Below are positions 5,239 to 32,837 of a stretch of DNA of 32,837 bases, one piece after another. The DNA is from Halococcus salsus. Its GTDB lineage: Archaea; Halobacteriota; Halobacteria; Halobacteriales; Halococcaceae. Both the position numbers and the translations under genes were made by a program. The notes below the pieces were generated by a model that searched no databases, was not told where the DNA came from, and saw only the letters and a program-made list of their open reading frames with translations. Where the stretch lies: the NCBI RefSeq assembly GCF_009900715.1, contig NZ_JAAAJC010000005.1, forward strand, positions 148,266 through 181,102, read 5' to 3'. The stretch's first letter is position 1, and every line of letters starts with the position of its first letter.

Positions 5239-5841
5239 ATGACTTCCCTGCGCCGTGACGCCACGAGCGGCCTGGTCGTGCTCGTCCCGATCATCGTCAC
5301 GCTCTACGTTCTCGCTTTCATCTACCGGACGATCGCCGGGCTCCCGCTCATCGAGACCATCGAACCCTCCTGGGTCCGGGTCCCGCTCACTTTGCTGGTG
5401 TTCGCGGCGCTCGTGCTCGCCATCGGCTACCTGATGCGCACCGCGAGCGGCCCCCTCGTCGAGGAGGCCATCGACGGCGTGATGAACCGGGTGCCGGGTC
5501 TCCGGGTGGTCTACAACGCCTCGAAGATGGGGGTCGAAACCGCCGTCACCGGCACCGGCGACCTCCAAGCCCCGGTCAAACTCGAGACCTGGGAGGGCCT
5601 CCGGATGACGGCGTTCAAAACCGGCACCCGGACCGACGACGGCCGCGACATCCTCTTTTTACCCACCGCCCCCAACATCACCACCGGCTTCGTCATCGAG
5701 GTCACCCCCGACCAGTACGAGGAGACCGACGAACGCGTCGAGGACGCCCTCACGCGCGTTTTGAGCGCGGGTTTCGGCGAGGCCGACGAATCAGGCCTCT
5801 CGCCCGCCGGCCGTACGCCGTCGCCGACCGACGACGACTAA
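5239..5841 (+). CDS. DUF502 family membrane protein
   Basis: A 200-residue member of DUF502. Two transmembrane helices (about 9-31 and 47-67) precede a soluble domain containing the family blocks MNRVPGLRVVYNASKMG and FLPTAPNITTGFVIEV. The C-terminal 20 residues are polar and low in complexity. DUF502 proteins occur widely in bacteria, archaea and plants, with links to membrane trafficking only in plants, so no prokaryotic function is assigned. It starts 39 bp after the proline dehydrogenase and could be cotranscribed. The stop is immediately followed by intergenic repeat copy A. Confidence 0.88.
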   Translation: MTSLRRDATSGLVVLVPIIVTLYVLAFIYRTIAGLPLIETIEPSWVRVPLTLLVFAALVLAIGYLMRTASGPLVEEAIDGVMNRVPGLRVVYNASKMGVETAVTGTGDLQAPVKLETWEGLRMTAFKTGTRTDDGRDILFLPTAPNITTGFVIEVTPDQYEETDERVEDALTRVLSAGFGEADESGLSPAGRTPSPTDDD

Positions 5842-6207
5842 ACCCCACCTTTTGCTGCGGTCGCTCACTTCGTTCGCTCCCTGGCAAAATGTGGATCAAA
5901 AGCCGTCGTCACCCCCTGCGGGGGTTCCTCGGCCCGCTCGCTCCCTCCGGTCGCTCGCGGTGGGATCACTACTCTCTCCGCAACCGCCAACCGCTCCAGC
6001 ACCGCACCGCCGAAGCCCTCAGTCGCTCGTTTCACTCGCTCCTTCGCCCTTCATCCACCAGGAGAGCACCGCTCTCCTGCGCCTCGGCTCGCTCCCGCTC
6101 GCCGAGACACCAAGCCCACAACCACATCGCGGCCGCACTACAGCCGCCGGCCGCGGCCGCACCGCGCCCGCTGGCCGCAGAGCGGCCACGAATCCCTCGA
6201 AAAGCAG
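5842..6207 (-). repeat. Modular intergenic repeat, copy A
   Basis: This is a non-coding 366-bp gap between convergent genes. Read on the minus strand it contains the hairpin AGGAGAGC-GGT-GCTCTCCT, the core GGATGAAGGGCGA (6044-6056), a variable insert built around GCGAGTGAAACGAGCGA, the second core GAGGGCTTCGGCGG (6007-6020), a TAGTGATCCCACCGCGAGCGA segment, and a right-end module CTTTTGATCCACATTTTGCC (within 5873-5902) that is identical in copy C. It ends beside the DUF502 stop with CAGCAAAAGGTGGGG. The part nearest sufU (about 6110-6207) shows only GC-rich low-complexity sequence. Confidence 0.8.
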
Positions 6208-22238: not shown

Positions 22239-22410
22239 GTCTCGCCGAACGAACGTGAGCCGAGGCTCAGGAGAGCTGTGCTCTCCTGGCGGATGAAGGG
22301 CGAGTGAACGCCGAAGGCGTGAGCGAGGGCTTCGGCGGAGGCGGTGGCGGTTGCTGTGCGGTTGGTAGTAGTTGTACCGCGAACGAGCGAAGCGAGTGAG
22401 CGGCCCTTTT
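22239..22410 (+). repeat. Modular intergenic repeat, copy B
   Basis: It begins with a GTCTCG..GAGCCGAGGC segment shared with copy A. Next comes the hairpin AGGAGAGC-TGT-GCTCTCCT (22269-22287), core GGATGAAGGGCGAG (22291-22304), the insert TGAACGCCGAAGGCGTGAGC with an ACGCC/GGCGT stem, and the second core GAGGGCTTCGGCGG (22325-22338). It ends with a diverged TAGTAGTTGTACCGCGAACGA segment. Unlike copies A and C it lacks the TTTTGATCCACATTTTGCC module; a strong terminator stands there instead. The preceding bases 22181-22238 are GC-rich filler. Confidence 0.8.
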
Positions 22411-22419
22411 TAGTCCAGG

Positions 22420-22473
22420 TTTTTGGGCGGGGGTTGAGGGCCGCGAAGCGGCCCGATTCCCCCGCCTAAAAAA
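22420..22473. terminator. Bidirectional terminator hairpin between MBL and PCNA genes
   Basis: TTTTTGGGCGGGGG (22420-22433) pairs with CCCCCGCCTAAAAAA (22459-22473). An inner perfect stem GGGCCGC-GAA-GCGGCCC occupies 22438-22454. The outer arms give a T-tract on either strand, so it can stop transcription from both convergent genes. Confidence 0.75.
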
Positions 22474-22481
22474 GTGGGTGT

Positions 22482-23225
22482 CTAGTCCGACTGGATGCGC
22501 GGCGCGAGCATGTAGGTGACACTCCCTTCGGCTTCGGCGATGTCGAAGTGGAGCTTGACGGGGAACTCCTCGCCGAGGTCGAGGGTGACCTCCGCGTCGC
22601 CGGGGATCGCCTTGTTCATGTCCTTCAGGTAGTCGAGCGAGAAGAGCGAGTGGGCGGGGCCGGCGGTGAGGTCGATGAGGTCGTCGTTGTCGAGCTCGAA
22701 GTGGACGTCGTCGGTGTCGCCCTCGGCGTCGACGTAGAACTGCTCGTCGGCCTCGTTCACGCCGAGCGCGATGTGGTCGGAGACCATGTCGGCGGCCTTC
22801 ACCGCGCGATTGATGTCGCGGCCTTCGAGCACGATCGTCGCGGGGAGGTCGAGGTCGGGGATGTCGGGTTCTTGCCGGATCGAGTCGGGGTCGATGAGCG
22901 CGAGGGTGTACTCCAGCCCGTCGATCGAGATGTGGAGTTTCCGGGTCTCCTCGTCGAGTTCGAGGTGGACGAGGTCGTCGCCACCCGCCATCCCGGCGAT
23001 GTCCTGGAGGCGCGAGAGGTTGACCCCGATGACCCCGCCGTCGGCCTCGTAGGACTCGAAGGCGGTGGCCGAGAGCGTGAGGTCGACCATCCCCACGTTC
23101 GCGGGGTCCACCGCCCGGATCTCGACCTGATCCTCGTTGAGGTGGAGCTTACACTCTTCGACGAGGACGCTCACCGAGTCGAGGGCCGTCCGCAGGGTCC
23201 CCGCGCTCACGATCGCGTTGAACAT
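22482..23225 (-). CDS. pcn: DNA polymerase sliding clamp (PCNA)
   Basis: A 247-residue archaeal PCNA, the homotrimeric ring that holds polymerases, ligase and FEN1 on DNA. The start [22 protein letters not shown], the first-domain [13 protein letters not shown], the interdomain connector around [21 protein letters not shown], and the second domain's [26 protein letters not shown] are all present. The length is normal. The surface is very acidic, as in other haloarchaeal clamps. A TATA element lies at leaderless distance. Confidence 0.98.
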
Positions 23226-26850: not shown

Positions 26851-27717
26851 ATGGACGAGCGGACGGCACTCGAACGCCTCGCCGGACGCCTCCCGGCCGC
26901 CGGCGACGACTGTGCGGTGGTCGAGGACCTCGTGCTCACCACCGACATGCTCCACGAGACCACGGACTTTCCGGGTGGAGTCACACGCTACACGGCGGGC
27001 TGGCGCGCGGTCGGCGCGTCGCTCTCGGACGTGGCAGCGATGGGAGCCAACGCCCGCGCCGCGCTCGCGGTCTACGCCGCCCCCGAGTTCGACGAGGGGC
27101 TCCTCGAATTCGTCGACGGCGCACGGGCCGTCTGCGAGGCGGTGGGGGCCTCGTACGTCGGCGGCGACCTCGACACCCACGAGGAGTTCACCGTCTCGAC
27201 GACGGCGGTCGGCCGCACGACGGACCCAGTCCCTCGCTCGGGCGCGAGGATCGGCGAAGCGGTCTGTGTTACGGGGAGCCTCGGGCGGAGCGGGGTAGCC
27301 CTTCGGCTGTTCGAGGCGGGCGAGATCGAGCGCGCGAACGACCTCTTTCGGTTCACCCCGAGAGTGGCGGCAGGACGGGCCCTCCGCCCGCACGCGAGCG
27401 CGATGATGGACGTCTCGGACGGGCTGGCGCGCTCGCTCCACCAGCTGGCCGACGCGAGCGGTTGTGGCTTCGCGGTCCGGACCCCGCTCCCCATCGACGA
27501 GTCGGTCGATTCGGTCGCCGAGGATCGGGAGGAACGACGCGAACTCGGGACCTTCTTCGGCGAGGATTTCGAGTTGCTGTTCACGGTTCCCGAGAACGAG
27601 TTCGAAGCCGCCCGAGATGCGACCGACGTGGCGGTCACGCGGATCGGGACGGTGGTCGAAGACGGGATTTCACTCGACGGCGAGCCACTTCCCGACCGTG
27701 GGTACACACACGGGTAG
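26851..27717 (+). CDS. thiL: Thiamine-monophosphate kinase
   Basis: This 288-residue enzyme phosphorylates thiamine monophosphate to the active diphosphate. It has AGDDCAVVEDLVLTTDML at the N-terminus (Mg/ATP site), a central YVGGDLDTHEEFTVSTTAVG, and MMDVSDGLARSLHQLA in the second half, with GEDFELLFTVPE near 231-242. The N-terminus is slightly shorter than bacterial ThiL but complete in motifs. The start is the ATG at 26851. It is followed by repeat copy C. Confidence 0.95.
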   Translation: MDERTALERLAGRLPAAGDDCAVVEDLVLTTDMLHETTDFPGGVTRYTAGWRAVGASLSDVAAMGANARAALAVYAAPEFDEGLLEFVDGARAVCEAVGASYVGGDLDTHEEFTVSTTAVGRTTDPVPRSGARIGEAVCVTGSLGRSGVALRLFEAGEIERANDLFRFTPRVAAGRALRPHASAMMDVSDGLARSLHQLADASGCGFAVRTPLPIDESVDSVAEDREERRELGTFFGEDFELLFTVPENEFEAARDATDVAVTRIGTVVEDGISLDGEPLPDRGYTHG

Positions 27718-27718
27718 G

Positions 27719-28095
27719 CAGCGGTCGCGGTGCGGCTGCGGTGCGGCCGCCGCGCGGTGGCGGTTGCGGTGCTCTCCTGGTGGATGAAGGGCGAGGCGGG
27801 AGTGCGAGTGAAACGAGCACCGCGAGCGGCGCGAGGTTCGACCGAAGGGAGAACCTCGGATGCGAACGGGGAACGGAGTGACCCGTGAGCGGAGCGAGCG
27901 CGCCGAGGGCTTCGGCGGTCGCGGTGCTGTGCGGTGGCGGTTGCGGAGGTGGTAGTGATCCCACCGCGAGCGAGTGAAACGAGCGAGCGGGCGCGAGGGT
28001 GACCAGCGGGAACCCGATGCGCTTTTGATCCACATTTTGCCAGGGAGCGAGTGAGCCGAAGGCGAACGAGCGACCGCAGCAAAAGGTGGGGACGT
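27719..28095 (+). repeat. Modular intergenic repeat, copy C (longest)
   Basis: The core GGATGAAGGGCGAG is at 27782-27795 and the second core GAGGGCTTCGGCGG at 27905-27918. They are 109 bp apart, and the insert is made of nested stems: GAGGTTC/GAACCTC, ACGGG/CCCGT and an outer CGGCGCG/CGCGCCG. Next come TAGTGATCCCACCGCGAGCGAG (27952-27973) and a right-end module TTTTGATCCACATTTTGCC (28023-28041) identical to copy A. It ends CGACCGCAGCAAAAGGTGGGG just before the hxlR stop. Only the right arm of the AGGAGAGC hairpin is kept. Confidence 0.85.
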
Positions 28096-28107: not shown

Positions 28108-28428
28108 CTAGAGCCAGTCGTCGGCCCAGGCCTCGACCTCGTCGAAGACCGGACAGAGCGCCGCGCCCTTCTCGGTGAGGCGGTAGTAGGTCGCGATCGG
28201 GGCGTCGGTCTCGGCGCGGCGCTCGACCAGCCCGGACTCCCGGAGGTCGTCGAGGACGCGCGAGAGGGTGCGGGCGTTGGCGTCGGTCGAGCGCTTGAGT
28301 TCGTTGAACCGCTGCTCGCCGTCGAGGAGTTCGTAGAGCACGACCAGTCGCCACTGCGAACCGATCTGGCCAAGCGATTCGACGACCGCACACGGCCCCT
28401 CCGTCGGGACGACCTGTTGTGATGACAT
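28108..28428 (-). CDS. HxlR-family winged-helix regulator
   Basis: A 106-residue HxlR/MarR-like repressor. C13 in GPCAVVESLG is at the position of the redox-reactive cysteine of HypR- and QorR-type members, and a second cysteine is C92. The HTH core is QWRLVVLYELLDGEQRFNELKRS through RTLSRVLDDLRESGLVERR, followed by the wing YYRLTEKG. It is divergent from the first doxX gene and probably controls this cluster in response to electrophile or redox stress (inferred). A TATATA element at 28464-28470 serves its promoter. Confidence 0.92.
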   Translation of the reverse strand: MSSQQVVPTEGPCAVVESLGQIGSQWRLVVLYELLDGEQRFNELKRSTDANARTLSRVLDDLRESGLVERRAETDAPIATYYRLTEKGAALCPVFDEVEAWADDWL

Positions 28429-32658: not shown

Positions 32659-32837
32659 CGGCGGGGCGGCGGTTGCGGTGCGGCCGCCGTGCGGTGGCGG
32701 TGCTGTTGCTGGCGTTTTCCTGGCGGATGAAGGGCGAGGACGCGAAGCGTCCGAGGGCTTCGGCGGTGTGGTGCCGGAGCGGCTGGCGGTGCTGTGCGGA
32801 GGCGGGTTAGCGATCGTACCGCGAGTGAGGCCGGAGG
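32659..32837 (+). repeat. Modular intergenic repeat, copy D (cut by window end)
   Basis: The core GGATGAAGGGCGAG is at 32725-32738 and the second core GAGGGCTTCGGCGG at 32753-32766. The insert between them is the perfect hairpin GACGC-GAA-GCGTC flanked by C. It continues with GGCGGTGCTGTGCGGAGGCGGG and TAGCGATCGTACCGCGAGTGAGG up to the end of the window. The upstream arm is degenerate (GCGTTTTCCTGG). The orientation of the next gene is unseen. Confidence 0.75.

Follow-up and report, generated by a model that had tools for sequence, protein, structure and literature searches.

A modular intergenic element of Halococcus with two fixed cores and rapidly exchanged G-A hairpins, and its candidate role at transcript ends

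The stretch of DNA analyzed here (the window, 32,837 nucleotides) carries four copies of an intergenic element in which two fixed cores frame hairpins that differ from copy to copy. Folding takes place on the frame strand, and covariation bears out the hairpin pattern as a structure. The element lies close up to gene ends, preferentially between convergent genes, and it keeps its inherited place even as its hairpins are swapped. On balance we read it as a modular intergenic 3'-end and bidirectional terminator element with fast hairpin turnover, a reading that we credit slightly more than we doubt, with the terminator role suggested by the anatomy of the sequence.

Genomes and samples

Judged by sequence, the window is part of a Halococcus genome, because its pcna product is 92-93% identical to the H. 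morrhuae and H. thailandensis pcna products and because the frame is found in every genome of the same genus that was searched. We refer to the 3.52 Mb genome of the window as G000 and to its relatives as G007 and G003. An 800 kb portion of G000 contig 1, in which a home-made gene finder called 812 genes, served as an unbiased sample. The copies, which belong to one repeat family and in part to related genomes, are not independent observations, and so the counts given below overstate significance. Rfam gave no matches in the window.

Anatomy, copy number, and range of the element

The sequence-only reading had described four copies with two fixed cores, and all four are present. Core 1 (GGATGAAGGGCGAG) lies at 22291-22304, 27782-27795, and 32725-32738 on the plus strand and, with one mismatch, at 6043-6056 on the minus strand, while core 2 (GAGGGCTTCGGCGG) has perfect matches at 22325, 27905, and 32753 on the plus strand and at 6007-6020 on the minus strand. 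That reading gave the insert between the cores a length of about 14-109 bp, which agrees with the 14 bp of the copy at 32.7 kb and the 109 bp of the copy at 27.8 kb, and it was also right about a second variable stem in the right-end module. An optional hairpin left of core 1 (hairpin 0) and a likewise variable hairpin in module 2 had escaped it. The three complete copies (A, B, and C) all lie between convergent genes. The features of the four copies are as follows.

Copy A
6058-6106, minus: optional hairpin 0
6043-6056, minus: core 1 (GGATGAAGGGCGAA)
6021-6042, minus: insert 1, a GAA-loop hairpin containing three G-A steps
6007-6021, minus: core 2 (TGAGGGCTTCGGCGG), the T of which pairs with the A ending core 1
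5934-5962, minus: module 2 G-A hairpin
5845-5902, minus: terminal module, ending 3 nt away from the stop codon of the convergent gene (5239-5841)

Copy B
22241-22289, plus: optional hairpin 0
22291-22304, plus: core 1
22305-22324, plus: insert 1 (TGAACGCCGAAGGCGTGAGC), a G-A hairpin with a GAA loop
22324-22338, plus: core 2
22375-22403, plus: module 2 G-A hairpin, then CCCTTTTT (z -2.02)
22407-22477, plus: terminal module, TTTTTAGTCCAGGTTTTTG, hairpin 3, AAAAAAGTGG, 4 nt from the pcna stop (z -5.07)
22482-23225, minus: pcna, the right gene; the element behind it is kept across Halococcus

Copy C
26851-27717, plus: left gene, AIR synthase-related (PF00586/PF02769)
27718-27781, plus: G/T-rich GCGGT tract between the left-gene stop, which it adjoins, and core 1 (read directly)
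27782-27795, plus: core 1 (GGATGAAGGGCGAG)
27796-27904, plus: insert 1, 109 bp, nested G-A hairpins
27904-27918, plus: core 2 (CGAGGGCTTCGGCGG)
27962-27990, plus: module 2 G-A hairpin (CACCGCGAGCGAGTGAAACGAGCGAGCGG)
28022-28089, plus: terminal module, CTTTTGATCCACATTTTG, G-A hairpin 3, GCAAAAGGTGG (z -2.97 as RNA)
28108-28428, minus: right gene, HxlR-type HTH (PF01638), convergent

Copy D
32725-32738, plus: core 1
32739-32752, plus: insert 1 (GACGCGAAGCGTCC), 14 bp, a hairpin with a GAA loop
32752-32766, plus: core 2
begins near 32818, plus: module 2, cut by the contig end

Comparison of about 50 copies gave the full anatomy. The left part consists of a G/T-rich GCGGT tract, the optional hairpin 0, CCTGGY followed by core 1, insert 1, and core 2, and over all copies the 60 nt left of core 1 average 46% G and 10% A. 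After core 2 come a second G/T-rich tract, module 2 (ACCGCGA..GAGCGG around insert 2, i.e., TACCGCGA..GAGCGG), a spacer that often carries another hairpin, and a terminal module in which insert 3 is held by CTTTTGATCCACATTTTG..GCAAAAGGTGG or by TTTTTAGTCCAGGTTTTTG..AAAAAAGTGG. In copy C the terminal module has T-tracts on both strands, the minus-strand tract following the stop codon of the right gene at a distance of 18 nt.

The family extends far beyond the window, with about 50 copies in the genome. Core 1 has 49 exact sites there, nearly always within a full frame, and the pattern core 1-N{0,30}-core 2 occurs 40 times, against 0 occurrences of a reversed control pattern. This paired frame was found in all 10 Halococcus genomes searched, at 13-40 per genome and again with no match to the reversed control, and in none of the 50 other haloarchaea searched. 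Lone cores with up to 3 mismatches are not rare in the window, whereas the paired frame is. Among the core 1 matches in the 800 kb sample, 15 of 18 are intergenic, and the three genic ones are core 1 alone. At one place in G000 (L016/L017, contig 1, 1153880-1153980), the core 1-insert-core 2 unit is duplicated in tandem with an 87 bp period.

The inserts are hairpins built on a G-A grammar

The inserts had been taken to be self-complementary from the first four copies, and the pairing is indeed real, but plain complementarity is not sufficient to describe it. Parsing replaced perfect self-complementarity with a grammar in which Watson-Crick pairs are followed by a tandem 5'-GA/GA-3' step, usually two further Watson-Crick pairs, the next step, and so on up to a three-base loop. 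Symmetric hairpins of this G-A type account for 93 of 111 unique copies of insert 1, 56 of 59 of insert 2, and all 22 of insert 3 (138 distinct copies of the element), and the inserts outside this class are mostly long nested hairpins. The grammar is regular: the tandem mismatch steps are GA/GA in 307 of 310 cases, consecutive steps stand two pairs apart in 97 of 123, and the loop is GNA in 120 of 151, with a C-G closing pair in 105 of those 120. As 480 of 546 GA steps (88%) have the context Y-GA-R, we infer that the G.A pairs are of the sheared type. C-GNA-G DNA minihairpins and tandem sheared Y-GA-R motifs are very stable in vitro, and they share their loop type and mismatch context with the Halococcus inserts; to our knowledge, they have not been known as a genome-wide repeat grammar.

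Evidence for pairing comes from covariation. In an alignment of 44 distinct 21-mers, 98.6% of cells are paired, and 46 cells show double changes against 10.2 in shuffles; versions of the same structure that were slid out of register reach at most 48% paired. In the same alignment, the final R of core 1 and the Y that precedes GAGGGC (columns 4 and 18) covary. Covariation replaced folding energy as the pairing test for insert 1, since the expectation that the inserts pair beyond shuffled sequence is borne out by covariation and not by the folding energy of single copies: the four insert 1 regions of the window have z-scores of -1.2, -1.7, -0.7, and +1.4, which are not significant in GC-rich DNA. 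Complete terminal modules do beat shuffles in folding energy (z -2.97 for copy C and -5.07 for copy B). At Watson-Crick positions G.T combinations outnumber A.C combinations by 34 to 8 (p = 7e-5), and the frame strand is therefore the folding strand.

A census of two-step mismatches found 18 of the GA/GA type, all intergenic, and at most one of any other type save the reverse complement TC/TC. The corresponding one-step census over the genome sequence gave a signal swamped by coding periodicity. Our literature search, which left most subscription journals outside its scope, returned no report of haloarchaeal intergenic hairpin repeats or of a tandem G.A hairpin grammar. The passages searched in the RepRanger paper mention no haloarchaeal case, nor do those searched in a survey of 118,019 genomes, which excluded mismatched arms. 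If our reading is right, repeat finders that require perfect inverted repeats miss G-A hairpins.

The element abuts gene ends and has the anatomy of a terminator

The 800 kb sample has 27 convergent, 83 divergent, and 79 tandem gaps of at least 150 nt, so that convergent settings make up 14% of such gaps, and they hold 22 of the 50 G000 copies. In 37 of these 50 the right-hand gene has its end at the element; at long gaps in general the share of gene ends is 35% (p = 3e-8). Over all copies, the median distance from the end of the element to the stop codon of the right gene is 4 nt, with 82 of 88 within 30 nt; where the right gene points away, the element lies mostly 38-53 nt from its start codon. 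Of 133 copies, 60 have a left gene that is oriented away from the element, which leaves the folding strand with no obvious upstream gene, a finding that ruled out a pure 3'UTR model for the left gene. A forward gene stands on the right in 34 of the 133 copies, and 20 lie between divergent genes.

Hairpins and T-tracts have a fixed order in Halococcus loci, where T4 follows the hairpin 43 times and A4 precedes it twice. In many copies module 2 is directly followed by a T-tract on the same strand, which is the anatomy of an intrinsic terminator, and hairpin 1 has no T-tract after it. T-stretches serve as the motif for intergenic termination in Haloferax volcanii, where a single hairpin assayed in vivo stopped 59% of transcripts (PMC7237163). 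The likeness to the intrinsic and bidirectional terminators of that species (PMC7237163) lies in a hairpin followed by a T-tract after the stop codon and in T-tracts running both ways between convergent genes; the Halococcus element differs in its phased tandem G.A hairpins, its mosaic of several hundred base pairs, its two invariant cores, and its extra hairpins without T-tracts.

Three features make us favor the terminator reading: the hairpin-then-T-tract polarity, the position at the stop codon, and a T-tract directed at the opposite gene. Module 2 with its T-tract would act as a transcription terminator of the intrinsic type on the frame strand, while the T-tract of the terminal module, which faces the opposite gene a median of 4 nt after its stop, would terminate that gene. 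The element would thereby separate neighboring transcripts. What selection would maintain is the presence of a hairpin of the right type and not its letters, so that the inserts could be replaced quickly, whether through inversion of a loop, through exchange with another copy, or through ready-made two-hairpin cassettes entering the loops. This reading does not explain hairpin 1, the cores, or the copies whose left gene points away, and the two fixed cores may have a further function, for instance in protein binding or RNA processing. Should it be right, it gives a handle on transcript ends between convergent haloarchaeal genes, a weakly understood step in archaea.

Positions are inherited while hairpins are exchanged

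Orthologous sites show the element staying in place. Judged by eye, all 9 readable Halococcus pcna loci have the terminal module and 8 have the frame, allowing small changes in core 1, even though the left-hand neighbor varies between Halococcus subgroups. Twelve further G000 loci were searched in G007; 11 have clear orthologues (the twelfth, L003, has no more than a 78% match and is left outside the 11), and the frame is found in 10 of the 11. Both cores are kept at eight and one recognizable core at two (L008 and L019), and one locus, L029, has no element in G007. There the element is absent between the same convergent genes in both G007 and G003 (L344 and L343), and the joint is not clean. 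At the G003 site just a few bases separate the two stop codons.

The inserts behave differently. At 13 loci with both flanks matched between G000 and G007, where the coding flanks are about 92% identical, insert 1 is fully replaced at 9 and nearly kept at 4. Between G001 and G004 (95%), eight loci comprise two identical, three with 1-4 base differences, two replaced, and one (L239/L245) in which the stem is unchanged and the loop is inverted from GGA to TCC. Shared inserts also occur within a genome. This amounts to a natural experiment in which structure is kept and sequence is exchanged beside neighbors that are 92% identical, and the fast exchange of stems suggests that shape, not sequence, is selected. 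The suggestion of a selected RNA or DNA structure in the sequence-only reading finds support in covariation, strand asymmetry, and positional conservation. Its other suggestion, a mobile repeat that gains hairpin cassettes, is partly upheld by loop insertions at orthologous sites and by the absence at L029; the frame itself is mostly inherited.

New two-hairpin cassettes were seen inside the loop of a GA hairpin in three pairs, with the direction of gain judged from which state is shorter: L001 to L340 (in G007), L155 to L154 (insert 3), and L012 to L268 (insert 2). The cassette, GTTCG-stem-CGTGATGACG-stem-CGAAC, has a small stem vocabulary and recurs across haloarchaeal families, with examples at L379 (G000 contig 1, 105628-105685) and L154; both stems are paired in 24 of the 27 distinct cassettes in the loci examined. 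It is quite possible, if short of probable, that the host maintains the frame and that the inserts are small mobile cassettes targeting hairpin loops, much as SMR-A does in PATE palindromes, an account compatible with the terminator reading. The three before-and-after pairs and the class-wide recurrence of a cassette with paired stems speak for it, but it does not account for most of the short inserts, which are single hairpins, and the inner stems differ too, so that the cassettes are not one sequence family. We know of no enzyme that would carry out such insertions. SMR-A of Haloquadratum is similarly short, makes no target duplication, and inserts inside palindromes (PMC3119063); compared by description, it differs in being about 110 bp with a conserved sequence, whereas the cassettes are about 56 bp with variable stems.

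G-A hairpins in other haloarchaea

The hairpin type reaches far beyond the frame. The pattern GAGCGA-N-CGNAG-N-GAGCGA occurs in 269 of 292 Halobacteria genomes and 72 of 77 genera, with a reversed control at mostly 0-3, and it is nearly absent from other classes of the phylum. With the center left unconstrained, both central positions pair in 26 of 79 matches outside Halococcus, where 4.9 are expected, mostly as C(GNA)G. CCGCGA..GAGCGG-TTTT matches in 55 of 97 genomes, and most of the matches listed fold as a GA hairpin. The mirror pattern, an A-tract and then the hairpin, is found in 27 of 97 genomes, nearly all of the matches listed being non-hairpin, and it has 0 matches in the three Halococcus genomes searched. 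Of 26 GA hairpins in loci drawn mostly from other genera, 19 are downstream of the left gene in the sense direction (p = 0.03).

A broader account, which we hold tentatively as possible and no more, is that a factor of its own, acting for instance in RNA processing or termination, reads a class-wide haloarchaeal hairpin grammar as structure, and that ready-made hairpins are actively inserted or swapped into loops, with structure conserved and sequence turning over faster than in the neighboring genes. If our reading is right, much haloarchaeal intergenic DNA is under one readable structural rule with non-Watson-Crick G.A pairs.

Other explanations and known repeat families

We consider it unlikely that the element is primarily a mobile single-stranded DNA repeat of the REP, PATE, or IS200/IS605 sphere, its hairpins recognized by a Y1-type transposase and any host function secondary. 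The roughly 50 copies per genome, the L029 element missing at orthologous sites, and a strand specificity that fits a single-strand intermediate agree with it, as do the near-terminal, IS605-like palindromes of Haloquadratum PATEs (PMC3119063). The genome has one Y1 transposase gene, and G-A-rich hairpins also lie inside CTCAAG..GTAGG hairpins close to it (L333 near 1330-1400) and at similar sites in other genera (L292, L299, and L300 near 1500), all of which are possibly transposon ends. Positions are mostly inherited, however, with the pcna element persisting across the genus, and there is no sharp boundary or target rule, the neighboring stop codon setting the end. In a Y1/RAYT check, both cores were absent from the Y1 locus, which counted against a remnant of IS200/IS605. 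No IS605 end was matched to the Halococcus cores; G-A hairpins are common to IS200-like loci and the cores are not.

Known families each share some of these features, and none fits in full. REP and BIME repeats likewise have tens of intergenic copies with imperfect palindromes, mosaic modules, and a preference for gene 3' ends, but the letters of REP palindromes are conserved, while in Halococcus the stems can be exchanged and constancy is confined to the frame and the G-A grammar. No conserved palindrome of REP type with a GTAG or CGTC tag was found, the stems being wholly different between copies with no common tag at the hairpin foot. PATEs of Haloquadratum walsbyi (PMC3119063) are also haloarchaeal, palindromic, heterogeneous, and numerous and lack terminal inverted repeats; they differ in being IS605-related, strain-specific insertions (PMC3119063), whereas the Halococcus frames are mostly at fixed inherited sites.

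It is rather improbable that the element has no function and is intergenic DNA homogenized by gene conversion, with hairpins arising from template switching. Such an origin would suit the fast insert turnover and the sharing of inserts within a genome, but template switching yields Watson-Crick arms and not phased GA/GA steps with covarying doublets, and both the tight position at gene ends and the class-wide polarity towards T-tracts tell against it. A double-stranded cruciform or protein-binding palindrome is highly improbable despite the inverted repeats between genes and the DNA-level event of the L239/L245 loop inversion, because G.A steps form pairs on a single strand and G.T outnumbers A.C where equality is predicted, an asymmetry that speaks against a cruciform with equal pairing of both strands.

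Two further hairpin arrangements were observed. Identical G-A hairpins form tandem arrays with periods of about 71 and about 103 bp in two other haloarchaea (G294 contig 1, 2846403-2846705; G067 contig 2, 11095-11319). Another conserved hairpin family, shared between genera, has a TAT-GA hairpin-ATA center flanked by complementary arms (L286, L289, and L298 near 1500).
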